Shown one piece after another: positions 9,470-42,974 of a stretch of DNA of 64,000 bases (within the stretch, counting starts at the first letter, position 1; the number at the start of each line of letters is the position of its first letter). Position numbers and translations under genes: made by a program. Source of the stretch: Paremcibacter congregatus (lineage in GTDB: Bacteria; Pseudomonadota; Alphaproteobacteria; Sphingomonadales; Emcibacteraceae); contig NZ_CP041025.1 of NCBI RefSeq assembly GCF_006385135.1, positions 372,001 through 436,000 on the forward strand, given 5' to 3'. The notes below the pieces were generated by a model that was given only the letters and a program-made list of their open reading frames with translations, was not told the DNA's origin and ran no database searches.

Positions 9470-10303
9470 ATGAAACAGATAACTTTTTTGATGATGATTT
9501 TTGCTTCTTTCCCGGCAGCAGCGGCGGAGCCTGAAGCGCCCCTGAGTGATCCGGCGAAATATCAACACTGCCTGACGCTGGTGGGCCGTGACCCGGTGGC
9601 GGCGCTTGCCTATGCCAATGACTGGGTATTTGGCGGGGTCGGGGATGTGCCGGCGGGCCATTGCAAGGCGCTGGCGTTGCTGGAAAGTGGCAAGCCCGTC
9701 GCGGCGGCGGAATTGTTGGAAAAACTGCTCGATGACCTGATGGTCAATGGCGATCCGACGGTGCGGCAGAATAATGATAATCTGCGGGTGCAATTATCTA
9801 TTCAGGCGGCGCTGGCCTGGAAGGCGGCCGGGGCCACGGCCCCGACTTATTATGACAAGGCCTATGTCGCCTATAGTGATGCTCTGTCGGGTATAAAAAC
9901 AGATAATCCCTTGCTCAACAATAAAGTTTTGTTGTGGGAATTATATGTCGAACGCGGAACCCTGCAGATCCTGCGGGGAGAGAGCCGGGCGGCGATCGGG
10001 GATTTTACCCAGGCGATTGTCCAGGATGATCAGCAATATGAAGCCTATCTGCAACGCGCCAAGGCGTATCGCAAAACACGCAATTTCCTGAAAGCCCGCC
10101 TGGATCTCAAGGTGGCGGACAAGCTCGGGGGTGAAATCCCGGAAGCCCGTGGCGAAATTCTGCTGGAAAGTGGCATTCTGTTTCGTGAACAGGGCCGCAA
10201 GCTGGAGGCGCGTCAGGCCTGGCAGGCGATTATTGACGCCTATCCGACACAGGATGTCGCCGAAATGGCGCGGACAAATATTGCGCTTCTGCCGGTAGAA
10301 TAG
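9470..10303 (+). CDS. Exported tetratricopeptide-repeat protein
   Basis: Protein of about 277 residues. From the ATG at 9470 the sequence begins with a short signal peptide (MKQITFLMMIFASFPAAAAE). The mature part is alpha-helical, with TPR-like units most clearly at RGTLQILRGESRAAIGDF, YLQRAKAYRKTRNFLKARLD and ESGILFREQGRKLEARQAW. TPR proteins mediate protein binding; no partner is evident. A TTG 36 bases upstream would extend the frame but would put residues before the signal peptide, so the ATG is preferred. It is divergent from the SDR gene. Confidence 0.8.
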   Translation: MKQITFLMMIFASFPAAAAEPEAPLSDPAKYQHCLTLVGRDPVAALAYANDWVFGGVGDVPAGHCKALALLESGKPVAAAELLEKLLDDLMVNGDPTVRQNNDNLRVQLSIQAALAWKAAGATAPTYYDKAYVAYSDALSGIKTDNPLLNNKVLLWELYVERGTLQILRGESRAAIGDFTQAIVQDDQQYEAYLQRAKAYRKTRNFLKARLDLKVADKLGGEIPEARGEILLESGILFREQGRKLEARQAWQAIIDAYPTQDVAEMARTNIALLPVE

Positions 10304-10330
10304 TCAGGGGTCACACTTCTGCCTTAATCA

Positions 10331-10360
10331 TTGGACAATCTGTTTAGTGTTACCTAATAT
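10331..10360 (+). promoter_or_regulatory. Promoter candidate for the Lys-rich protein
   Basis: TTGGAC (10331-10336), an 18-base spacer and TAATAT (10355-10360), about 45 bases before the start codons of the downstream gene. Confidence 0.5.
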
Positions 10361-10408
10361 GGTAAAGTTACACAGTCATTTACAATTTAAAATATGAAGG
10401 GAAGAATG

Positions 10409-10720
10409 ATGATGAAAATTTTTACGCCTAAAACCTTGGGGGCGCTTCTGGTCGCTGTGTCTTTTGCTGTTTCTCCTGTGATCGGCCATGCCGGTGACAA
10501 AGAGAAGGGGAAAGAGAAAAAATCTGAAATGATGATGAAAAAAGACGCCCATAAAGCTGAAATGGAAGCCAAGAAGGCTGAAATGAAGGCCCATAAAATG
10601 GACAAAAAAGCCTATAAAGAAGACATGAAGGGGCATAAAAAAGCTGAAAAAGACGCCAAAAAGGCCGAAAAGAAAGCTAAAAAAATGAAGAAGAAACTTA
10701 CGGACGACGATGAGTCCTGA
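10409..10720 (+). CDS. Small exported Lys/Ala/Met-rich helical protein
   Basis: A protein of about 103 residues with a clear signal peptide (KTLGALLVAVSFAVSPVIGH, cleavage near GHAG). The mature part is almost entirely Lys, Glu, Ala, Met and His in short repeats such as KKAEMKAHKMDKKAYKEDM and KKAEKDAKKAEKKAKKMKKK, ending in TDDDES. It should be a long charged helix in the periplasm. Function is unknown; nucleic-acid, phosphate, lipid or metal binding are all possible. Three ATG codons lie in a row at 10406-10414; AAGGGA upstream favours the second or third. Own promoter and terminator, so a single-gene unit. Confidence 0.75.
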   Translation: MMKIFTPKTLGALLVAVSFAVSPVIGHAGDKEKGKEKKSEMMMKKDAHKAEMEAKKAEMKAHKMDKKAYKEDMKGHKKAEKDAKKAEKKAKKMKKKLTDDDES

Positions 10721-23753: not shown

Positions 23754-24394
23754 GACAGGGCGGGTTTTTGCGGCCGTGGGGGGCTGTTGCCGGGATGGTT
23801 TTATGTCTGGCCGCCTGTACGGGCAACCCGACGGAAGCATTGCTCAAGAAAAATCATCAGGACGTTATCCTGCCGGGGGACTTCGGGATCTGCAAGGGCT
23901 ATGGCTGCCGCCGTTACGTGAAAACCGGGCTGGCGCCGGAGGAATGGCGGCAGATTGAAAATATTTTTGTCCCCGCGCCAGTGACGGCAGAAACAGAACG
24001 TCAGATGATTCGTCAGGCGATTGCCCTGTTTGAACGGTTTGTCGGTCCTAAAACCGGCACGGATCAGGATGCCGCCGGCGCCGTGATCCTCAACTTTTCC
24101 ACAAAAGGCCAAATGGATTGTATTGATGAGGCGTTCAACAGCAGCACCTACTTGCATTTGCTGCGGAAAGCCGGGCTGGTGCGGTTCCATGCTCTGGGCG
24201 CGCCGTTGCACCGGGGAAATTATATCACGCGCTGGCCTCATAATACCGCGACCATCCATGTGATGGGTCAGCCCCGGACGATAAAGGGCGAAGGGCATTT
24301 TGTCGTGGATTCCTGGTTCCACAAGAATGGCGATATGCCGGAAATTATTCCGGCGGCGCAGTGGGCTGAAGGATGGTCACCGGATCAGGAATAG
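23750..24394 (+). CDS. Hypothetical lipoprotein
   Basis: A 214-residue protein with a type II signal peptide: charged start, hydrophobic AVAGMVLCLAAC with lipobox LAAC, so the mature protein starts at that Cys. The rest has CKGYGCRRYV, NFSTKGQMDCIDEAFN and HVMGQPRTIKGEGHFVVDSW, with Cys residues that may form disulfides. I recognise no domain, although the pattern is of a conserved single-domain protein. It is translationally coupled to the YheT gene (ATGA). Confidence 0.8.
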   Translation: MRQGGFLRPWGAVAGMVLCLAACTGNPTEALLKKNHQDVILPGDFGICKGYGCRRYVKTGLAPEEWRQIENIFVPAPVTAETERQMIRQAIALFERFVGPKTGTDQDAAGAVILNFSTKGQMDCIDEAFNSSTYLHLLRKAGLVRFHALGAPLHRGNYITRWPHNTATIHVMGQPRTIKGEGHFVVDSWFHKNGDMPEIIPAAQWAEGWSPDQE

Positions 24395-24412
24395 CGCATC
24401 TACAGCGGTGCC

Positions 24413-24592
24413 CTAAAGTTCTTCTACGTTACTATCGGAGAAGGCCCAGTCCTGCGCATTTTCCATTTCAGCCAGAAACAGATGTTCCGCGGAAACGATG
24501 GCTTCTTCTTCGCTGGCGGCGTCAACCGTGGTGACCCAATAAAAAGACCCGCGTTTCAGGTCGGCTTTCAGGGTGACGTTAAAGGTGGCCAT
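24413..24592 (-). CDS. Small conserved-looking hypothetical protein
   Basis: A 59-residue protein beginning MATFNVTLKADLKRGSFYWV and ending DWAFSDSNVEEL. An alternating strand-helix-strand pattern, DAASEEEAIVSAEHLFLAEM in the middle, resembles small proteins with a DUF-type beta-alpha-beta fold. AAGGA lies about 8 bases before the ATG. It is convergent with the lipoprotein gene. Function unknown. Confidence 0.65.
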   Translation of the reverse strand: MATFNVTLKADLKRGSFYWVTTVDAASEEEAIVSAEHLFLAEMENAQDWAFSDSNVEEL

Positions 24593-24668
24593 GGATCATT
24601 CCTTTGTCTAAAATTCTATTGCCCCCTATACATCCTAAAGCCGGCGGCGTTTCAAGTAAAAAATATGC

Positions 24669-33456: not shown

Positions 33457-34044
33457 ATGACAGAAACCACAATCGACAGCCTGGTCGTCAAGATCAGGGG
33501 GGATGGCGCCGACCTGCGCGCAGAGTTGGGAACCATCAAGCGGGAGTTTGACAGTCTTGACCAGATCGCGACCCAGACCGCTGAGGGCTTGACCCGAACT
33601 TTCAGCGATTTCGCCCGCTCCGGCGAGCTGAGTTTTAAAAGCCTCGGTCAGGTGGCGCAATCGGTGCTCGCCGATATCGCCAATAGCGCCCTTCAATCGG
33701 GGCTCTCCAATCTATTTGGCGACAGCAACGGTGACATGGGCGGCGCCATCGGCAGTTTCTTTGGCAGTCTTTTTGGCCGCGCCGGGGGCGGCACCGTCGG
33801 GGCGCGACAGCCCTATCTGGTCGGCGAACGCGGGCCGGAACTGTTTGTGCCGAGTGGTCCCGGGCGTATTCTGCCCCGGGCCGAGGCGGCGCGCATCGGC
33901 GGGGCGGGTTCTGGTCGGGCGGCCCCCCAGATCACCATCAATATCACCAATCAGGGCGGAGGTCAGGATATGACCCGTCGCAGCGCCGGTCAGGTGGCGG
34001 TGGCTGTACGCCGCGCCATGGACCGGGCCGAGAGGGACCTGTAA
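33457..34044 (+). CDS. Short phage tail tape measure protein (GTA g11)
   Basis: A 195-residue protein. SLVVKIRGDGADLRAELGTI then FDSLDQIATQTAEGL, and a Gly-rich centre (SFFGSLFGRAGGGTVGARQP) with YLVGERGPELFVPSGPGRIL, matches the C-terminal part of lambda-type tape measure proteins. RcGTA also has a short tape measure (about 220), consistent with a short tail. Start chosen at the ATG at 33457 after AGGA. The stop overlaps the next start. Confidence 0.85.
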   Translation: MTETTIDSLVVKIRGDGADLRAELGTIKREFDSLDQIATQTAEGLTRTFSDFARSGELSFKSLGQVAQSVLADIANSALQSGLSNLFGDSNGDMGGAIGSFFGSLFGRAGGGTVGARQPYLVGERGPELFVPSGPGRILPRAEAARIGGAGSGRAAPQITINITNQGGGQDMTRRSAGQVAVAVRRAMDRAERDL

Positions 34045-36389
34045 TGTATTGGCTGGCCGGGGAAGGCGATCAAACCGACCAGGGGTTCATCCGGCGGTTT
34101 TCGCCGCGCTTCTGGACGCTGAATTTTCCGCGCCCGATGACAGCATCTCTGATCACCACCGGTTTTGACAGCCTGCAGATCGACCTGACCTATTATCGCC
34201 ATGAGGATCTCTGCGGCCTGATCTGGCAGACGGAAGACACCCTGGATCATCCCTTCCATCGTTATCAGACCCGCCGGGATTATCGCCATACGCTGCTGCA
34301 GTTCCGCTGGCAATCGAACGGCCTTCGCCCGCTGGACGGGTTGCACAGCCCGACCCTGACCATTGAGGGACGGGACAGTGAGGGCGTGCCGCGGGTCTGG
34401 TATGTGCGGCTGTGGAATTATGCGGTGGGCGGGCCGGAAGATGCCGTGATTACCCTCGATTTTGATGCGCTGGCCGGGGGGTTTATGCATCCGGAGGAGG
34501 CTGATCCGGTCTGGCCGCAAGATATTGACCGGCTGTTTATCAGCATGGTGGCACCGGAATTTGACGGGGTGACAACAGGGCCTCTGCCCTCGGCGCGGGA
34601 CAGTCAGGTGATCCTGTCGCAGATCACCGTCACCGGCCCGACCTCGACATTGAAAATCGGCGACGGTTATGTCAGTCCCCACGACCTGCGCATCGCCAAT
34701 GGCTATGACGATGTCTATAACCAGACACCGGAACGGGTGATCTGGAACATGCTGAAAGCGGGCTATCGCGGCTGGATCACTCATTATATCGGGATGAGTC
34801 ATTATTTCAGTCTCACCTGGCAGGCGGGGACGGCCCGCTATGTGGTCGACCCCGCCAAACCGGCGTTGAATGTTGCGGCGGCGCGCTGGCATGAAAATTT
34901 CCTCACCCTCGCCCGGCAGTTTGATGTTCAGGTGATTCTGTCCCTGTCCTATGAAATCCTGGCGGAGAATATGCCCGAAGACTGGCAACAACGCGCCCAT
35001 GACGCCAGCCCGGCCCGCACCGGCTGGACTCCGCCGTCGGGTCTGATCGCCCCGACCAATGATGACGCTCTCGCTTATTTGCGCGATGTGTTTCTCGCCC
35101 TCGGGCAGCTGGCGGCGGGCGCCGGGCTGGAAATTCATCTCCAGATTGGCGAGCCCTGGTGGTGGATCGCCGACGGGGTCGGGGCGCCGCATTTCTATGA
35201 TGATGTCACGACGGCGCGCTATGCCGTGGAAACCGGACAACCCGTGTCCACGCCGCATCTTCTTGCCTCAGAAACGGCAACCCCGGACCAGCAGCTCTAT
35301 CTCGACTGGCTCGGCGACAAGCTCGGGCAATCGACCCTGTGGCTGCGCGATCAGATCAGGGCAGGTCTGCCGACAGCAAAGGTGGGACTGTTGTTTTACA
35401 GCCCGCAGGTGATGCGGCAGGATGCACCCATGGCGGAGACGGTCAATTTCCCCGTCGTCTCATGGGCCCATCCGGCCTTCGATTTCTGGCAGCTGGAGGA
35501 TTATGACTTCGTGCTCGACGGGGTCTGGGGGGAAAAGACGCAGGCGATTGACAAAATAGATCAGCAGCTGGGCTACCCCCGCGCCAGCAGCCATTATTTC
35601 GCCGGGTTTAATCTGTCGGCGAGCACGCCGGAAAACTGGCGCAATATCGACCAGGCCATTGGCGGTGGTTTTGCAGCGGGCTTCGCTGAGGTCTTTGTCT
35701 GGGCCTATCCCCAGCTGCAGCGCGACGGGGTGATATATGGCATGGATCAGGAGCAGGATATGACAGGATTTCACGAGATACGGCTGCCGGTGGATATCAG
35801 CTTTGGCGCCAGCGGCGGGCCGCAATTTATGACCAGCATCGTGACGCTGGCCTCAGGTCATGAGCAGCGCAACCGCGAATGGCAGGAGGCGCGCAATCTC
35901 TATGACATTGGTTACGGCTTGCGGTCGGAGCAGGATCTCGCGGAGGTGATCGGTTTCTTCCGCGCCCGCGCCGGTCGGGCTTACGGTTTCCGCTATAAAG
36001 ACTGGCTTGATTTCAGCAGCGGGACGCCGGGCGCGGCGGTGAGCGCCAATGATCAGGAGATCGGCACCGGTGACGGCGCGACAGTGGGATTCCAGCTGGT
36101 GAAAAAATATGACAGCGGCGGTGAACATCACCTGCGCACCATTACCAAGCCCGTGGCGGGAACGGTTCTTGTGGCGCTGGACGGTATTGTCCAGTCCGCA
36201 GGCTGGCAGGTGGACCTGACCACGGGGGAGATCACTTTCGAGGTGGCGCCGACAAATGGGACCGTAATCACCGCCGGGTTTGAATTTGATGTACCGGTGC
36301 GTTTCGCCGAAGACAGCCTGACCGTGACCCAGGAAAATTTCCGCGCCGGACAGCTGCCGAACATTTCCCTGATCGAGGTGCGGCTGTGA
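34044..36389 (+). CDS. Tail protein with TIM-barrel-like module fused to DUF2460 (GTA g12)
   Basis: A 781-residue protein, about 570 longer than a normal DUF2460 distal tail protein. Residues 1-150 are a beta-rich domain (FSPRFWTLNFPRPMTASLIT, YYRHEDLCGLIWQ). Residues about 160-560 alternate strands and helices like a TIM barrel (IGMSHYFSLTWQAGTARYVV, LEIHLQIGEPWWW, VGLLFYSPQVM). From about 573 the DUF2460 domain begins: MTGFHEIRLPVDISFGASGG, then GHEQRNREWQEARNLYD, FFRARAGRAYGFRYKDW and VRFAEDSLTVTQENF. The extra part resembles phage tail-sheath or tail-tip glycosidase-type barrels; sugar binding or cleavage is inference. Confidence 0.85.
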   Translation: MYWLAGEGDQTDQGFIRRFSPRFWTLNFPRPMTASLITTGFDSLQIDLTYYRHEDLCGLIWQTEDTLDHPFHRYQTRRDYRHTLLQFRWQSNGLRPLDGLHSPTLTIEGRDSEGVPRVWYVRLWNYAVGGPEDAVITLDFDALAGGFMHPEEADPVWPQDIDRLFISMVAPEFDGVTTGPLPSARDSQVILSQITVTGPTSTLKIGDGYVSPHDLRIANGYDDVYNQTPERVIWNMLKAGYRGWITHYIGMSHYFSLTWQAGTARYVVDPAKPALNVAAARWHENFLTLARQFDVQVILSLSYEILAENMPEDWQQRAHDASPARTGWTPPSGLIAPTNDDALAYLRDVFLALGQLAAGAGLEIHLQIGEPWWWIADGVGAPHFYDDVTTARYAVETGQPVSTPHLLASETATPDQQLYLDWLGDKLGQSTLWLRDQIRAGLPTAKVGLLFYSPQVMRQDAPMAETVNFPVVSWAHPAFDFWQLEDYDFVLDGVWGEKTQAIDKIDQQLGYPRASSHYFAGFNLSASTPENWRNIDQAIGGGFAAGFAEVFVWAYPQLQRDGVIYGMDQEQDMTGFHEIRLPVDISFGASGGPQFMTSIVTLASGHEQRNREWQEARNLYDIGYGLRSEQDLAEVIGFFRARAGRAYGFRYKDWLDFSSGTPGAAVSANDQEIGTGDGATVGFQLVKKYDSGGEHHLRTITKPVAGTVLVALDGIVQSAGWQVDLTTGEITFEVAPTNGTVITAGFEFDVPVRFAEDSLTVTQENFRAGQLPNISLIEVRL

Positions 36390-36390
36390 G

Positions 36391-37233
36391 ATGAAACAGA
36401 TTTCCCTGGACCTCAAAACCCATCTGGCGGGGGAGGTGACGACTTTGGTCACCTGCTGGCGGCTGACCCGGCGTGACGGGTGCAGACTGGCCTTCACCAC
36501 CCATGACCAGATACTCAGGATTGATCATGTGAGTTTCCGGCCGGTGAATAGTTTTTTCTCTACGGCGGTGAGCAGCAGCAACGCCCTGAATGTGGATAAT
36601 CTGGCGGTCGATATGATGTTGAGCAGCGAGGGCATTGACGAGAGGGACATCCGCGCCGGGCTTTATGACCATGCGGCGATCGAGATCTTTCAGGTCAACT
36701 GGCAGGACCTGTCCCAGGGAAAATTGCCGATCCGCAAAGGCTGGCTCGGGGAATTCAGCCTCAAGGACGATCAGTTCACCGTGGAAATTCGCGGCCTCAG
36801 TCAGAAATTGCAGCAGACCATCGGTGATGTCTTCTCACCGGATTGCCGGGCCGATCTCGGCGGGGACCGCTGCCATGTCAATCTGGAAAAAGTTTCGCGT
36901 CTCGGTCGGGTGACGGCGGTTCTGGAGCCGGACCGTTTTCAGGACAGTGGGCGGGCGGAAGCCGGTGGCTGGTATGATTATGGGGTGCTACGCTGGATAT
37001 CCGGGGAAAATGCCGGCCTGAAGAGCGAAATCAAACGCTATACGGTGGGTGACTTCCGTCTGTATGATGATCTCAAATCGCCCATCGCGGTGGGGGATAT
37101 TTATCTGGCGGTGGCGGGCTGTGACAAACGCGCCGCTACCTGCAAGGCCAAATTTGAGAATTTCGCCAATTTCAGGGGCGAGACAGCGATACCGGGCACG
37201 GATGCCCTTTATCGCTATCCCGGCCTGAAATAG
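36391..37233 (+). CDS. DUF2163 baseplate hub protein (GTA g13)
   Basis: A 280-residue protein: TLVTCWRLTRRDGCRLAFTT, DHVSFRPVNSFFST, IRAGLYDHAAIEIFQVNW and GLSQKLQQTIGDVFSPDCRA are typical. Four Cys are placed as C152-x8-C161 and C244-x6-C251 (CDKRAATCKAKFENFANFRG), fitting the iron-sulfur site reported in the RcGTA hub. It starts one base after the previous stop. An antisense gene ends two bases beyond its stop, breaking the operon here. Confidence 0.92.
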   Translation: MKQISLDLKTHLAGEVTTLVTCWRLTRRDGCRLAFTTHDQILRIDHVSFRPVNSFFSTAVSSSNALNVDNLAVDMMLSSEGIDERDIRAGLYDHAAIEIFQVNWQDLSQGKLPIRKGWLGEFSLKDDQFTVEIRGLSQKLQQTIGDVFSPDCRADLGGDRCHVNLEKVSRLGRVTAVLEPDRFQDSGRAEAGGWYDYGVLRWISGENAGLKSEIKRYTVGDFRLYDDLKSPIAVGDIYLAVAGCDKRAATCKAKFENFANFRGETAIPGTDALYRYPGLK

Positions 37234-37235
37234 GA

Positions 37236-37919
37236 TTATTTTTTCGCCGCAGCCTTTTTAGGCGCTGCTTTTTTCGCCGCAGGTTTCTTGGCGGGTGTTT
37301 TCTTCGGGGCGGTTTTTTTCGGCGCCGCTTTTGTGTCTTCCGCCGGGGCGGCGTCTTCCACAGGGGCTTCCGGCTCAACTTCTTTCCACTGATCAGGATA
37401 GAGACGCTGATGGATCTGGTTTACCCGATTGCTGACATCGGCGATGGCTTTCAACAGCGCATCGAGATTATAGCTAACACCACGGAAGGCGTAAATTTTT
37501 GTGGTCGGATCAAAGGCGCGGAAGATATTCTTCGGCTCCACATCCTTATGGCGACTGTTGGCGATATCGCCTATGAAATCATAGAGGATATATTGATCCT
37601 TGGACTGGGCGATCCACTGGTCATTGGCTTCATCGGCCTGATCGACCAGGGCCAGAATATTTTCGTTATTCAACGGATATTTTTCCGGCAGCTCAAGAAC
37701 CTGGCGCAGGCCGGCGGCCCGTTCCTTGCCTTTTTTACGCGGGGACCACAACATGCGGGCCAGTTGGTTGCTGCCTAGCATGATATTCTGCAGGCCGAAA
37801 AACGCGCCGACGGCGGCCTGGTTTTCCATTGACTGGTTCAGAATATCCACGCTCGCCTCGATAAAGCGGCACTGGTTTCTTAATTCGTGAATATGCAACC
37901 CAATTACATTCATGTCCAT
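37236..37919 (-). CDS. Antisense gene in the GTA cluster: helical domain with histone-H1-like tail
   Basis: A protein of about 227 residues on the strand opposite to all other GTA genes. Residues 1-180 are helical: FFGLQNIMLGSNQLARMLW, then LPEKYPLNNENILALVDQAD and FDPTTKIYAFRGVSYNLDAL, an arrangement like HEPN-type four-helix proteins but without a clear R-x4-6-H motif. The C-terminal 45 residues are a Lys/Ala/Pro-rich tail (APKKTPAKKPAAKKAAPKKA) like AlgP or bacterial H1-like proteins, expected to bind DNA. Start chosen at the ATG at 37919 (AAGGA 10 bases upstream). It may be a cargo or regulatory gene. No function is assigned. Confidence 0.8.
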   Translation of the reverse strand: MDMNVIGLHIHELRNQCRFIEASVDILNQSMENQAAVGAFFGLQNIMLGSNQLARMLWSPRKKGKERAAGLRQVLELPEKYPLNNENILALVDQADEANDQWIAQSKDQYILYDFIGDIANSRHKDVEPKNIFRAFDPTTKIYAFRGVSYNLDALLKAIADVSNRVNQIHQRLYPDQWKEVEPEAPVEDAAPAEDTKAAPKKTAPKKTPAKKPAAKKAAPKKAAAKK

Positions 37920-37978
37920 GCGGAACAAATCCTTCTATATTTTTTTATGATGAACAGTGATACCAAATTTTTTTTCAA

Positions 37979-38413
37979 ATGACCACAGGTGATCTGCAGC
38001 GAAAACCCATATTTTTGGCGGCCCGCGCCTGTGTTGGCTGTCCGTTCCGCCATCAAGGCCGTATTCCGGCGACAGGACTAGATTGTGTGGGGCTGATTGT
38101 CCATGTGGCGACAGCATTACGGCTTGGATATTTTGACCGGCGGGACTATCGGAAAATCCCCGGCAGGCGGGCGATTTCCCGAGCGGCGGAACAGGCGGGG
38201 TTTCGGCCCGTCGCGGTTTCTGACCGGCGAGCGGGAGATGTGGTGATCCTGCGGTTCGGTCGGACCCTGGAGCATGCGGGCATCCTGTCCGACCGGGGTC
38301 TGGTTCATGCCTGTGAAAAATTTGGCCAGGTGGTGGAACATCGTCTGGACAAAGACTGGGTGGCGCGCATCACCCATATATACGCCTTCCCCTCCATAAA
38401 AGAGCAGGACTAG
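37979..38413 (+). CDS. NlpC/P60-type cell wall peptidase (GTA g14)
   Basis: A 144-residue tail-associated peptidoglycan peptidase. Catalytic Cys36 in TGLDCVGLIVHV, probable catalytic His99 in GRTLEHAGIL and a third polar residue, His110 in GLVHACEKFG. The N-terminus AARACVGCPFRHQGRIP matches the GTA form. No ribosome-binding site is visible before the ATG at 37979, and the gene is 745 bases from g13, separated by the antisense gene, so it probably has its own promoter or is reached by readthrough. Confidence 0.87.
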   Translation: MTTGDLQRKPIFLAARACVGCPFRHQGRIPATGLDCVGLIVHVATALRLGYFDRRDYRKIPGRRAISRAAEQAGFRPVAVSDRRAGDVVILRFGRTLEHAGILSDRGLVHACEKFGQVVEHRLDKDWVARITHIYAFPSIKEQD

Positions 38414-38416
38414 CAT

Positions 38417-40675
38417 ATGGCATCACTGGTTTTAACGGCCGTTGGCACCTATTTCGGCGGACCCATCGGCGGCATGATCGGTGGCATGGTCGGTCAACAG
38501 GTCGATAAGGTGATTTTTAGCAGCCACAGCAGCCACACTCAGGAAGGTCCGCGCCTGAATGACCTGACGGTGCAGACCTCATCCTACGGGGTGGCGATCC
38601 CCCGGGTATATGGGACACTGCGGTTGCCGGGAAATGTGGTCTGGTCATCGGGCCTGAAGGAGACGCGCCAGGAGGCGTCCGAAAGCACAGGCGGTAAGGG
38701 CGGCGGGGCGACAGTAAAGACCGTGACATATTCCTATACAGTCTCCTTTGCGGTGGTGTTGTCCGGCCGGGAAATTCATGATGTCGGCCAGATCTGGGCT
38801 GATGGCAAGTTGCTGCGTGATGGCGCTGGCAAACTGGCGGTCGACGGCGCGGTGAGAATTTATACCGGTCAGCCCGGTCAGCAGCCAGATCCTGTGATAG
38901 AGGCCCTGGAAGGTCAGGAGAATGTTAACGCCTTTCAGGGACGCGCCTATGTGGTGTTTGAAGATCTTGCGCTTGGTGAATATGCCAACCGCATTCCCAA
39001 TATGACGTTCGAGGTCGTGGGCGATGCAACAGGGGATGTGGCGCTGGCGACCATTGTCGTGGACATTTGCCGGTTGAGCGATTTGTCGGCCATTGATGTT
39101 TCGGCGCTAGATCAGCGGGTGGCCGGTTATATGATTCCGGGACCGGTGCAATCCCGCCGGGCGCTGGAAGAACTGGCGCAGATTTATCACTTCGATATGG
39201 TGGAACAATTGGAGGGACTGGTGTTTCGCCCGTTGGGGCGACCTGCAGTACAGATGATTGCTGATGCGGATGTGGTCAAGCGCGGGCAGGGCGACACTTC
39301 GGGGGAGAAAATCACCCGAAGCCGGCAGCATGATCTGGAACTGCCCCGGGAAATCGGTATGTCTTTTATTGACCCGGCCCGCGATTATCAGACCGGACAC
39401 CAGCGGGCCCGTCGTCAAACCGGGGCGAGCCACATGGTAAAGGAAAGCAGCCATGCCCTGGTGCTGTCCGCCTCTACCGCCAAGGCGGTGTCAGAGGTGA
39501 GACTGGACCTGGCTTGGTACGGGCGGGAAAGGGTGCAGGTTGTTTTGCCGCCGCGTTTTGCGGATCTGTCGCCCGGGGATGTGATTACCTTGCCGGCGGC
39601 CGGGGGCGATCAGGAATATATGGTGCAGGAAACGGAACTGAGTCCTGCCGGTCTGATCTGTCAGGCGGTGAAATTCTCCGCCAGGCTGCTGGACCGTGTG
39701 GCGGTGGCCGACAGTGGTGCTGTGCCGCCCCAAACGGTGCCCGACCTTGCCGAAACGATGTTGTTTGCCCTTGATATGCCGGCGATAACGGCGGAAGAAG
39801 TGATCAGTCCGGTGATGTTTTGGGCGGTGGCGGCGGGGGCGGGAAAATGGGAAGGGGCGCGGTTGTATCTTTCCCGGGATGGCGGGGACAGTTACAGCCC
39901 CTTGGGGGCGCATGTGCATCCGGCGGTCACCGGGATTGTTGAAAATTTTCTCAGTAACGGCCCGACCGCCTATTGGGACACGGCCAGTGAAATTCTGGTG
40001 CGGCTGGATCGGGCGGATCACGGCCTCGCCTCATCGGACAAGGGAGCGGTGTTGCGGGGGGCGAACCTTGCCTGGGTCGCAGGGGAAATCGTGCAATTTC
40101 AAAATGCAGAAGAACTGCCCGATGGCCGTTTCCGCCTGACGCATTTGTTGCGTGGGCGACGCGGGACGGAACATTATGTTGCCGGACATGGGGCGGGTGC
40201 GCCGTTCGTGCTGCTTACGCCGGCGGCAGTGGCGGTGGCGGGGCTCAATCTGGCGGATGTTGGCCGGGCCTTGAAATTGAAGGCGGTGACCGTGGGCGGA
40301 CTGCTGGATGATACCCCGGCGGTTGACCTGGTGTTTCAGGCCCGCGTCTTGACGCCTTTCGCTCCGGTGCGGGCGACGGCGACGCGGGACGGGGCGGGTA
40401 ATATCACGTTGTTCTGGATCCGCCGCAGCCGGGTGGGCGGCGATTGGCAGGATCATGCGGATGTGCCGCTTGGCGAACGTTATGAAAAATATGATATCGA
40501 GATACTTGATGCAGCGATCCCTGTGCGGACCCTGACCAGTGAAGCCCCGACCTGCTTTTATCCCGTCACGCAGCAGGTGTCGGATTTTGGTGCTGTTCAG
40601 ACGAGCCTTACGGTCAGGATCATGCAGCTCAGCGATACGGTGGGGCGGGGGCAGCCGCTCACCGTAACCCTGTAA
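38417..40675 (+). CDS. Phage tail tip/host specificity protein, short form (GTA g15)
   Basis: A 752-residue protein. A Gly-rich hydrophobic N-terminus (VGTYFGGPIGGMIGGMVGQQ) is followed by the family start YGVAIPRVYGTLRLPGNVVW, then the phage-tail-3-like region (VDICRLSDLSAIDVSALDQR, RRALEELAQIYHFDMVEQLE, FRPLG) and a C-terminal beta domain with RLTHLLRGRRGTEHYV. RcGTA g15 is about 1,300 residues and contains a TIM-barrel domain; that part is missing here. Starts three bases after the g14 stop. It should form the receptor-binding tail end. Confidence 0.87.
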   Translation: MASLVLTAVGTYFGGPIGGMIGGMVGQQVDKVIFSSHSSHTQEGPRLNDLTVQTSSYGVAIPRVYGTLRLPGNVVWSSGLKETRQEASESTGGKGGGATVKTVTYSYTVSFAVVLSGREIHDVGQIWADGKLLRDGAGKLAVDGAVRIYTGQPGQQPDPVIEALEGQENVNAFQGRAYVVFEDLALGEYANRIPNMTFEVVGDATGDVALATIVVDICRLSDLSAIDVSALDQRVAGYMIPGPVQSRRALEELAQIYHFDMVEQLEGLVFRPLGRPAVQMIADADVVKRGQGDTSGEKITRSRQHDLELPREIGMSFIDPARDYQTGHQRARRQTGASHMVKESSHALVLSASTAKAVSEVRLDLAWYGRERVQVVLPPRFADLSPGDVITLPAAGGDQEYMVQETELSPAGLICQAVKFSARLLDRVAVADSGAVPPQTVPDLAETMLFALDMPAITAEEVISPVMFWAVAAGAGKWEGARLYLSRDGGDSYSPLGAHVHPAVTGIVENFLSNGPTAYWDTASEILVRLDRADHGLASSDKGAVLRGANLAWVAGEIVQFQNAEELPDGRFRLTHLLRGRRGTEHYVAGHGAGAPFVLLTPAAVAVAGLNLADVGRALKLKAVTVGGLLDDTPAVDLVFQARVLTPFAPVRATATRDGAGNITLFWIRRSRVGGDWQDHADVPLGERYEKYDIEILDAAIPVRTLTSEAPTCFYPVTQQVSDFGAVQTSLTVRIMQLSDTVGRGQPLTVTL

Positions 40676-40704: not shown

Positions 40705-41208
40705 ATGACAGATCAAACCCCGCGGCTGCAAATGCCTTATATTATCGCCAGTCAGGCGCAAAAAGAGGTCAGCCATAATCAGGCGTTGAACCAGCTGGAC
40801 GCACTGGTGCAGCCGGTGGTGGAAACGGCTGACCTGAGCGAACCGCCCCTGACCCCGATGGCGGGCGGATTGTGGCTGGTCGCCAGTGGCGCCAGTGGGG
40901 ACTGGGCCGGGCATGAGGACCATGTGGCGCAATATATGGGGGGAGGGTGGCTTTTTTACGCTCCCTTTGAGGGCATGTGCGTGGGGGTGAAAGACCAGAA
41001 TATAACCGCGAGATATGTGGCGGGACTGTGGCGAAAGGGGCAGGTCACGGGTCTGTCATTTGAAATTTCAGGACAGCAGGTGGTCGGGCCGCAGCAGGGG
41101 GCTGTTTCTGATCCGGTTGGGGGCGCAATCATAGACACAGAGGCGCGTTTGGCCCTTACTGAGCTTCTGGCGGCGCTCAGATATCACGGGCTGATTGCAG
41201 CCCTGTAA
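40705..41208 (+). CDS. DUF2793 family tail fibre-like protein
   Basis: A 167-residue protein. The N-terminal LQMPYIIASQAQKEVSHNQA, then LNQLDALVQPVVETADLS and GDWAGHEDHVAQYMGGGWLF with YAPFEGMCVGVKDQ, is typical of DUF2793, often found at the end of GTA and phage tail clusters. Likely part of the tail tip or fibre. AAAGGA precedes the ATG. Last gene of the cluster. Confidence 0.87.
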   Translation: MTDQTPRLQMPYIIASQAQKEVSHNQALNQLDALVQPVVETADLSEPPLTPMAGGLWLVASGASGDWAGHEDHVAQYMGGGWLFYAPFEGMCVGVKDQNITARYVAGLWRKGQVTGLSFEISGQQVVGPQQGAVSDPVGGAIIDTEARLALTELLAALRYHGLIAAL

Positions 41209-41325
41209 CGCCTTATTTTGTCATGTCCCAATAGCGCCATATTTTACCGGATAATGAAAATATAGAATTTTAATTAAATGGGCGGTATGGTGCCGCCAAA
41301 TTTGAAGACCAAAGAGGGTAAAACA

Positions 41326-42474
41326 ATGAGGAAAATTATTTTAAGCACAGTTTGCGGGGTTGCATTGATCAGTGGTAATGCGGTTGCCGATGAGGGGAGC
41401 TGGTATGCCGGTATTGATGGTTCATACAGCATTCTGGGCAAGGAAAAAGCCAAAGGCTCCACATTGGACCTGCAAAGCCATTTCAATGATGGCTGGGCTC
41501 TGGGCGGAACCATGGGGTATGATTTTGGCGTCTGGCGTCTGGAAGGTGAAATTGGCAAACATTTCCATAATGCGGACCGCTTCGCCATCACCAATGACGG
41601 GGGACTTGGGCTTGGCGGCGGGTCTGTGAATGCGACGACAGGAAAATCTCGTCTGACCCATTACATGGTCAATGCGGTGTATGATTTCGCCGCGCTTTCT
41701 GATGATAATAAAGTGGAGCCTTTCATTGGGGCCGGTCTGGGGCTTGGCGATCTGAATATGAAAAACCTGGCGACTGCCGGCGGGGCTTTTGCCCATGACA
41801 AGGATAGCGTCTTCGCCTATCAGATGTTCGCCGGATTGCGGGTGCCGCTGGCCAATGCATTTGAAATGTCGCTTAAATACCGTTTCCTGGGCACCGCCGA
41901 TGCCAGTCTGCAGGATAATCTTGGCAACCGCTTCAAGGCCAGTTACGGCGTTCATGATATTATGATGGGTGTGACTTATCGGTTTGGCGGTAATTCAAAA
42001 CGGGCGGCAGCAGAAATGCCGCAACCGATTGAGGTCGCGGCCGCACCGGAAATAAAAGAAGAGATTGTGCCGGAGCCAGTTGTTGAAGAACCTGTTCAGG
42101 CGCCAGACCCGATGCCGGAGCCTGCCGCGGGACCTGAGGTCGATATGGGCCCTTATGTGGTTTATTTTGACTGGAACAGTAAAGCCATTACGGCACAGGC
42201 GCAGGATATTATCAGCAAAGCCGCCTCTGAAGCTGGAAAATTGAAGGAAATCGAAATTAAGGTTGTTGGCCATGCGGACCGTTCCGGTCTGGACAGCTAT
42301 AATGATAAACTGTCTCTGGCCCGTGCGGCGGTTGTGAAGCAGGCCTTGATTGATGCGGGCGTTGACGCCGGGGTCATTACCATGGAAAGTTTTGGTGAAA
42401 CAGCCGGTGAAGTCGTGACAGAAGACGGGGTGCGGGAAGCCAGAAACCGTCGGGTTCTGATTACATTGAAATAA
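41326..42474 (+). CDS. OmpA family outer membrane protein
   Basis: A 382-residue outer-membrane protein. Signal peptide at 1-21 (LSTVCGVALISGNAVAD). Residues about 25-220 form an eight-strand beta-barrel with alternating aromatic strands (GSWYAGIDGSYSILG, YGVHDIMMGVTYRFGG). A Pro/Glu linker (EPVVEEPVQAPDPMPEP) leads to the OmpA C-terminal domain, with YVVYFDWNSKAIT, VVGHADRSGLDSYNDKLSLA and REARNRRVLI, which binds peptidoglycan. Start chosen at the ATG at 41326 with the signal peptide directly after it. Own unit with a terminator. Confidence 0.93.
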   Translation: MRKIILSTVCGVALISGNAVADEGSWYAGIDGSYSILGKEKAKGSTLDLQSHFNDGWALGGTMGYDFGVWRLEGEIGKHFHNADRFAITNDGGLGLGGGSVNATTGKSRLTHYMVNAVYDFAALSDDNKVEPFIGAGLGLGDLNMKNLATAGGAFAHDKDSVFAYQMFAGLRVPLANAFEMSLKYRFLGTADASLQDNLGNRFKASYGVHDIMMGVTYRFGGNSKRAAAEMPQPIEVAAAPEIKEEIVPEPVVEEPVQAPDPMPEPAAGPEVDMGPYVVYFDWNSKAITAQAQDIISKAASEAGKLKEIEIKVVGHADRSGLDSYNDKLSLARAAVVKQALIDAGVDAGVITMESFGETAGEVVTEDGVREARNRRVLITLK

Positions 42475-42500
42475 AACTTAATCTGACAGCATAATGAAAA

Positions 42501-42530
42501 AGGCGTCCCTGAGGGGGCGCCTTTTTTTTT
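42501..42530 (+). terminator. Rho-independent terminator after ompA
   Basis: Stem AGGCG and CCC with GGG and CGCCT, short GA-containing loop, then a run of nine T (42522-42530). Confidence 0.9.
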
Positions 42531-42549
42531 GCGTTTGGGACAGAGAGGA

Positions 42550-42849
42550 TCAGCCGAAGAGCTCGCCGAGCTTCAGGGCGAGACCCATATCGCCGTCAAT
42601 CTTCAGTTTACCCATCATAAAGGCCATCTGGGGATTGAGGGAGCCGTCGATCAGGCCTTCGAAATTATCTTCACTCAGGGTCAGGGTGACATCGGCATCA
42701 AGATCGTCATTGCTGACGGTAGGTGGATTGGTCGTGCCATCAATGAAAATAAAGCCGTCACCTTTCAGGTCAATTTTAACTTTCTTGCCGTTGGCGTCCA
42801 TGGCGTCTGTTTTGCCGCGGATGGTGGAGGTAAGATCTTCGAGGCTCAT
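42550..42849 (-). CDS. SCP2 sterol-binding domain protein
   Basis: A 99-residue single SCP2 domain, a small lipid-binding fold: KVKIDLKGDGFIFIDGTTNP, then DADVTLTLSEDNFEGLIDGS, MAFMMGKLKIDGDMGLALKL. Typical length for alphaproteobacterial stand-alone members. Probably carries or senses hydrophobic ligands; ligand unknown. Single gene convergent with ompA. Confidence 0.92.
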   Translation of the reverse strand: MSLEDLTSTIRGKTDAMDANGKKVKIDLKGDGFIFIDGTTNPPTVSNDDLDADVTLTLSEDNFEGLIDGSLNPQMAFMMGKLKIDGDMGLALKLGELFG

Positions 42850-42974
42850 GTCTCATTCCTTTATGTGGTTCGGGGCCTTATCAGGTTATGCGGCCTTTAA
42901 CAGTGGGTGCGGTTAAAATCTAACATACGTTTGATTTTATTGCCAGAGGTCATTTAGACCCTGCCGGGAGGCAG

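Follow-up and report, generated by a model that had tools for sequence, protein, structure and literature searches.

In the window analysed here, a 64,000-nucleotide stretch of the Paremcibacter congregatus genome, a single gene, which we call X, runs antisense between g13 and g14 of a gene transfer agent (GTA), a domesticated, phage-like gene cluster. In several lineages of the same order this one internal gene has been kept while the GTA block was deleted on both sides, and X, being intact where the GTA was deleted around it, has its role in the cell and not in the particle. The reading that we prefer, and which we hold to have about an even chance of being right, is that X is a cell gene, a domesticated HEPN-like protein with a decayed RNase motif that binds nucleic acid (probably RNA) as a non-catalytic regulator and has a control element of its own upstream. 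Discussions of GTAs usually treat them as units that a lineage either retains or loses; X marks a host function interleaved with the GTA, offers a natural experiment in which selection on the GTA can be told apart from that on the cell, and draws attention to an uncharacterised protein family that is constrained and whose conserved upstream element is nearly unique in each genome. That GTA clusters can hold additional conserved genes is generally known (PMC9765227), and GTA loss has been described too (PMC10883770); in the open-access literature we found no report of an antisense gene at this GTA site or of such a gene surviving the loss of its GTA.

The antisense gene and its cluster

The cluster around X is clearly of the RcGTA type, with a TIGR02218 hub, a megatron-like g15 and GTA-type tail genes (Table 1). 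The original prediction placed a single gene antisense between g13 and g14 and tightly abutting g13, and both points were borne out by the minus-strand ORF, its conserved start and its homologues, with the X and g13 stops only 2 nt apart and no terminator-like site found between them. The predicted span had to be shortened: the strand and the g13-side end stood, but the end at 37978 did not, because a CDS of 37236-37978 has many stops in the frame of that end. The most likely start is ATG 37919, with AAGGA just before it, and the N-terminus of the protein (M-D/E-x-x...) is kept in all homologues. The divergent region was indeed A+T-rich (about 73%), although it measures 59 bp and not the predicted 50 or so, and g14 lacks a ribosome-binding site as had been proposed, in that no Shine-Dalgarno sequence precedes it here, and the same is true of several relatives in the genus.

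By sequence comparison, the coding status of X is confirmed far beyond chance, with homologues 30-84% identical in six families and a dN/dS of 0.07 in the genus. X is present in one copy in the window genome. The protein matched no named family in the libraries searched (including Pfam, NCBIfam and PADLOC), and neither Rfam nor a tRNA scan gave a match in the window.

Table 1. Features at the X locus (window coordinates)
Feature	Position	Strand	Description and basis
Gene X	37236..37919	(-)	227 aa; antisense between g13 and g14; ORF and conserved start
Conserved N-terminal domain	37374..37919	(-)	residues 1-182; alignment, AlphaFold2, R[ND]xxEH family homology
Degenerate HEPN-type motif position, LNNENILALVDQADEANDQW	37614..37673	(-)	residues 83-102; aligned with LNNRDARNALEHFDERID of relatives
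Variable C-terminal tail	37236..37373	(-)	Lys/Ala/Pro-rich in the window
g13	36391..37233	(+)	baseplate hub, TIGR02218, 229.6 bits; convergent neighbour of X
g14	37979..38413	(+)	NlpC/P60 peptidase, PF00877; divergent neighbour of X
X-g14 divergent gap	37920..37978	(.)	59 bp, A+T-rich
Upstream element, window form TTTGGTATCACT of TGTGCTATCGCT	37956..37967	(-)	putative promoter or operator

Other genes of the cluster were characterized as well. In g12 (34044-36389) a non-contractile tail sheath N-domain and a TIM barrel are fused to DUF2460, and in g15 (38417-40675) the middle of the megatron model (about 206-756) is missing, a gap found order-wide; a domain transfer between the two genes is possible. 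Downstream in the cluster lie genes for a tail-fibre-like protein (phrog_5363, 40705-41208) and an OmpA-like outer-membrane protein (41278-42474), which stay beside the GTA in several families.

Distribution of X with and without the GTA

Among the 201 genomes of the order, X homologues were present in 78 and the GTA hub g13 in 108. X and g13 were adjacent in 30 genomes and convergent in every one of them, with a match spacing of <0.5 kb in 29 and 1.2 kb in one, and 48 genomes carried X without an adjoining g13 (30 of family f5, 13 of f1-g4, five of f2; families are coded f1-f8, of which f6 appears to be Sphingomonadaceae-like and f5 Kordiimonadaceae-like). In f1-g4, an Emcibacter-related genus, the left flank (window about 24,390-24,600) and the right flank (about 42,480) both adjoin X, in the same order and orientation as in the window, so that the gene has lost about 17 kb of GTA around it, on either side. 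In f5, X was intact in all 30 sampled genomes and still sits within this pair of flanking genes, where a few additional genes also lie. In f2, decayed GTA fragments (terminase, portal or capsid genes) remain near X and possibly represent GTA loss under way. The second GTA marker, megatron, agreed with g13: in f1-g4 it matched only in G032, which is GTA-bearing, and in G021, where the copies lie near separate hub matches far from X, and in f5 the matches were weak only.

Individual f2 loci (L042, L044, L048, L053, L058) hold differing GTA subsets around X, either terminase and portal or capsid. The window gene just left of the GTA is an unnamed 59-aa ORF (24413-24592, minus strand), which GTA-free families keep on the corresponding side of X at about 46-68% identity. 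On the other side there is a conserved 99-aa gene (42550-42849, minus strand) that we call SCP2-like from a reading of its sequence; a plus-strand ORF overlapping it (42494-42916) is less conserved and probably no gene.

Presence in related GTA loci, proposed with the original prediction as a check, held within the order, where X was convergent to g13 in 30/30 genomes, but not in family f6, whose GTAs are present without X, or in loci of other orders. In a 387-genome class sample no relative of X was found besides the window's own genome, and the GTA loci examined from other orders showed no X in the g13-g14 interval, both results being subject to limits of sampling and sensitivity; two of these loci (L092, L097) do have g13-g14 inserts, which are unrelated to X. 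We thus rejected a class-wide GTA gene on the class sample and the other-order loci lacking X, and free-living phage cargo because the viral-contig matches were only GTA loci of this kind. The objection foreseen at the outset, that X is a common chromosomal gene merely inserted here in one strain, was half right: X does behave as a cell gene, but the one-strain insertion was ruled out by a position that is fixed across families.

The g13-g14 interval holds X in f1, f4, f7 and f8, so the gene had joined the cluster before these families diverged. On the rpoB tree f6 is nested among X carriers, which would imply that f6 lost X, but in AU tests the X carriers as one clade were not rejected (p 0.15; p 0.47 for the GTA genes), and X may instead have been gained later. 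GTA loss or decay that spared X requires at least three state changes on the rpoB tree. From simple pairwise counts, which give rough values, the dN/dS of X within the genus was 0.069, and all the GTA genes compared lay above it (g13 0.094, g12 0.102, g15 0.137, g14 0.166). In GTA-free groups, with few pairs each, X gave 0.077 (3 pairs) and 0.171 (8 pairs), and such low values mean that the protein is still constrained there. Whether the GTA is present or absent, purifying selection acts on X (dN/dS 0.07-0.17).

The X protein and its upstream element

The original prediction described a helical, HEPN-like domain lacking the usual catalytic motif. The N-terminal domain is predicted to be mostly helical with a small sheet (AlphaFold2 pLDDT 93.6). 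Its relatives were found via a guessed R-N-x-x-E-H-F-D-E-R pattern followed by tblastn, which led from the pattern proteins to plasmid proteins and to gp37 of Gordonia phage Madeline (QDH47640.1), whose length is the same; these relatives carry R[ND]xxEH[FY]D[ED]R, which is an HEPN-type Rx4H motif. When X was compared with a nine-protein profile of the relatives, hhalign gave 99.6% (E 5.4e-24, 163 columns), against 0.1% for an unrelated helical protein used as control. In Foldseek the X model matched the viral model A0A514A2X7 of Gordonia phage Madeline (E 8e-5, probability 1.0), which from the phage and the length should be gp37, so that the structure search and the sequence route would have reached the same phage protein independently. 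Direct tblastn of X against phages gave chance matches only. Judged by the profile alignment, the N-terminal domain of X is homologous to an unnamed R[ND]xxEH[FY]DER phage/plasmid family.

Against solved structures the X model gave no significant match in Foldseek, with HEPN appearing only at E 1 or worse, and the model of a relative likewise reached HEPN only at E 1 or worse; curated HEPN profiles matched neither X (Pfam, NCBIfam, PADLOC) nor its relatives (Pfam, NCBIfam). The proposed structural check was answered in part, by a confident model and a phage/plasmid homology but not by a solved HEPN domain, and since both a Pfam HEPN match and a significant solved-structure match are wanting, X as a member of the HEPN superfamily is unproven. 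The loss of the catalytic pair was upheld: L89 and Q94 replace the motif R and H in the window, the aligned R89 and H94 occur together in none of 34 homologues, and Rx4-6H with a polar residue after the R is absent from the window protein. X is thus probably catalytically dead, although R87 and H94 (six apart, with a hydrophobic residue after R87) are found in 11/34 homologues, so that some proteins outside the window's family may still be active. Motif loss is known in the HEPN superfamily, of which MtlR is a non-catalytic member, and HEPN domains without the motif have been proposed to bind RNA (PMC3710099); by analogy, X may bind RNA, action on RNA having been one of the original suggestions, and it may act as a regulator.

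The Lys/Ala/Pro tail that had been predicted is present at about residues 183-227 of the window protein. Across homologues its net charge runs from -9 to +37, being basic (+8 or more) in 14/33 and neutral or acidic in another 14, and with a charge so variable the tail cannot carry the core function, though in some species it may contribute to the binding of nucleic acids.

Upstream of X we found a 12-bp element, TGTGCTATCGCT, that is common to GTA-bearing and GTA-free families and of which the window carries a diverged form, TTTGGTATCACT. Among 20 held-out genomes unused in motif finding, which are mostly f5 and related and so not independent draws, it was exact in 14 and had at most two mismatches in 17. 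Its distance before the X ATG is mostly 93-137 nt. A 12/12 match was absent from 10,000 Markov-shuffled controls, and in ten whole genomes the exact 12-mer occurred upstream of X, and at other places at about the chance count, which ruled out a general promoter motif. A two-part form, CTRG-N15..18-TGCTATCGCT, selects mainly X, in GTA-bearing f8 as well. The element is nearly unique to X in each genome, and we infer that it is the promoter or operator of X. Several f1-g4 genomes showed no clear element, and there X is close behind the SCP2-like gene. In one genus relative the X-g14 gap is interrupted by a MITE-like insert (L071, about 10160-10420) that bears inverted ends (GGTCTGTGGACAATTACGATCAGGGTGT...) and parts X from the upstream element.

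According to our preferred reading, a member of a mobile HEPN-like family would have been domesticated inside the GTA in an ancestor, after which its RNase motif would have decayed; the protein would now be a regulator, probably RNA-binding, driven from its own upstream element, and selection has kept it while the surrounding GTA was deleted or decayed at least three times.

Alternative readings and comparison with known systems

The alternative that survives best, though we think it unlikely, is that X came from its phage- and plasmid-borne relatives as a defence or immunity gene and guards its host against phages or GTA particles, a reason to retain it whether or not a GTA is present. Defence is a common role of HEPN proteins (PMC3710099), and Madeline gp37 lies in a stretch with an integrase, an HTH protein and an immunity repressor, but PADLOC gave no match to X, and typical defence genes are patchy, whereas X is single copy, vertical at one locus and strongly constrained. 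Ranking next, and improbable, is an anchor-like role, in which X does something ordinary and important for the cell and its position puts a cost on removing the GTA in one step, the two being functionally unconnected. The deletions in GTA-free lineages did go around X and not through it, and every sampled f5 genome has it intact; yet f6 GTAs persist without X, and this explanation leaves unsaid what X does.

Transcription gives two further alternatives. The layout makes interference between X and GTA transcription, and with it the antisense control of late genes originally suggested, possible: X would be transcribed into g13 and away from g14, the GTA would be transcribed antisense through X, and their mutual lowering would control the GTA. 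As a two-way switch, to which we give the same low likelihood as the anchor-like role, X and its element would restrain the late GTA genes in non-producers, induction would silence X by antisense transcription, and X would control host RNA after GTA loss. A little further down in probability stands interference by itself, which is consistent with the convergent/divergent layout fixed in 30/30 genomes, with the closely spaced stops lacking a terminator-like site, and with an element lying directly beside the g14 start; since X persists without a GTA to control, it cannot be the sole selected role. Least credible by far is histone-like DNA compaction for GTA packaging, as originally predicted from the tail, which is Lys/Ala/Pro-rich in the window and gives a sub-threshold HC2 (PF07382) match (13.2 bits, cut-off 40), but which is not conserved and is neutral or acidic in 14/33 homologues, while X persists where nothing is packaged and many GTAs, those of f6 and of the other-order loci, do without it, so that compaction is unsupported.

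Compared with known systems, our preferred domesticated regulator is closest to the R[ND]xxEH[FY]DER family (Madeline gp37 and proteins of Alteromonas, Rhodococcus, Enterobacter and Thiodictyon plasmids), to which X is homologous over 163 columns and whose Madeline member has a similar predicted fold. From that family X differs in the missing aligned R and H, in its variable tail and in being fixed on the chromosome as a single copy, whereas these relatives are mobile cargo. With the HEPN superfamily the relatives of X share Rx4H with a polar residue after the R, but X itself has neither a Pfam HEPN match nor a significant solved-structure match. Some X homologues share a Lys/Ala/Pro-rich tail with the histone H1-like HC2 proteins; X differs in a score far below the cut-off, in an unrelated folded domain and in a tail that is no conserved basic Lys/Ala/Pro core. 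Finally, X sits inside an RcGTA-type cluster. A gene of the RcGTA structural set would be expected in GTAs at large and to disappear with them; X is antisense, is absent from the other-order GTAs examined, and is kept after the GTA has been lost.
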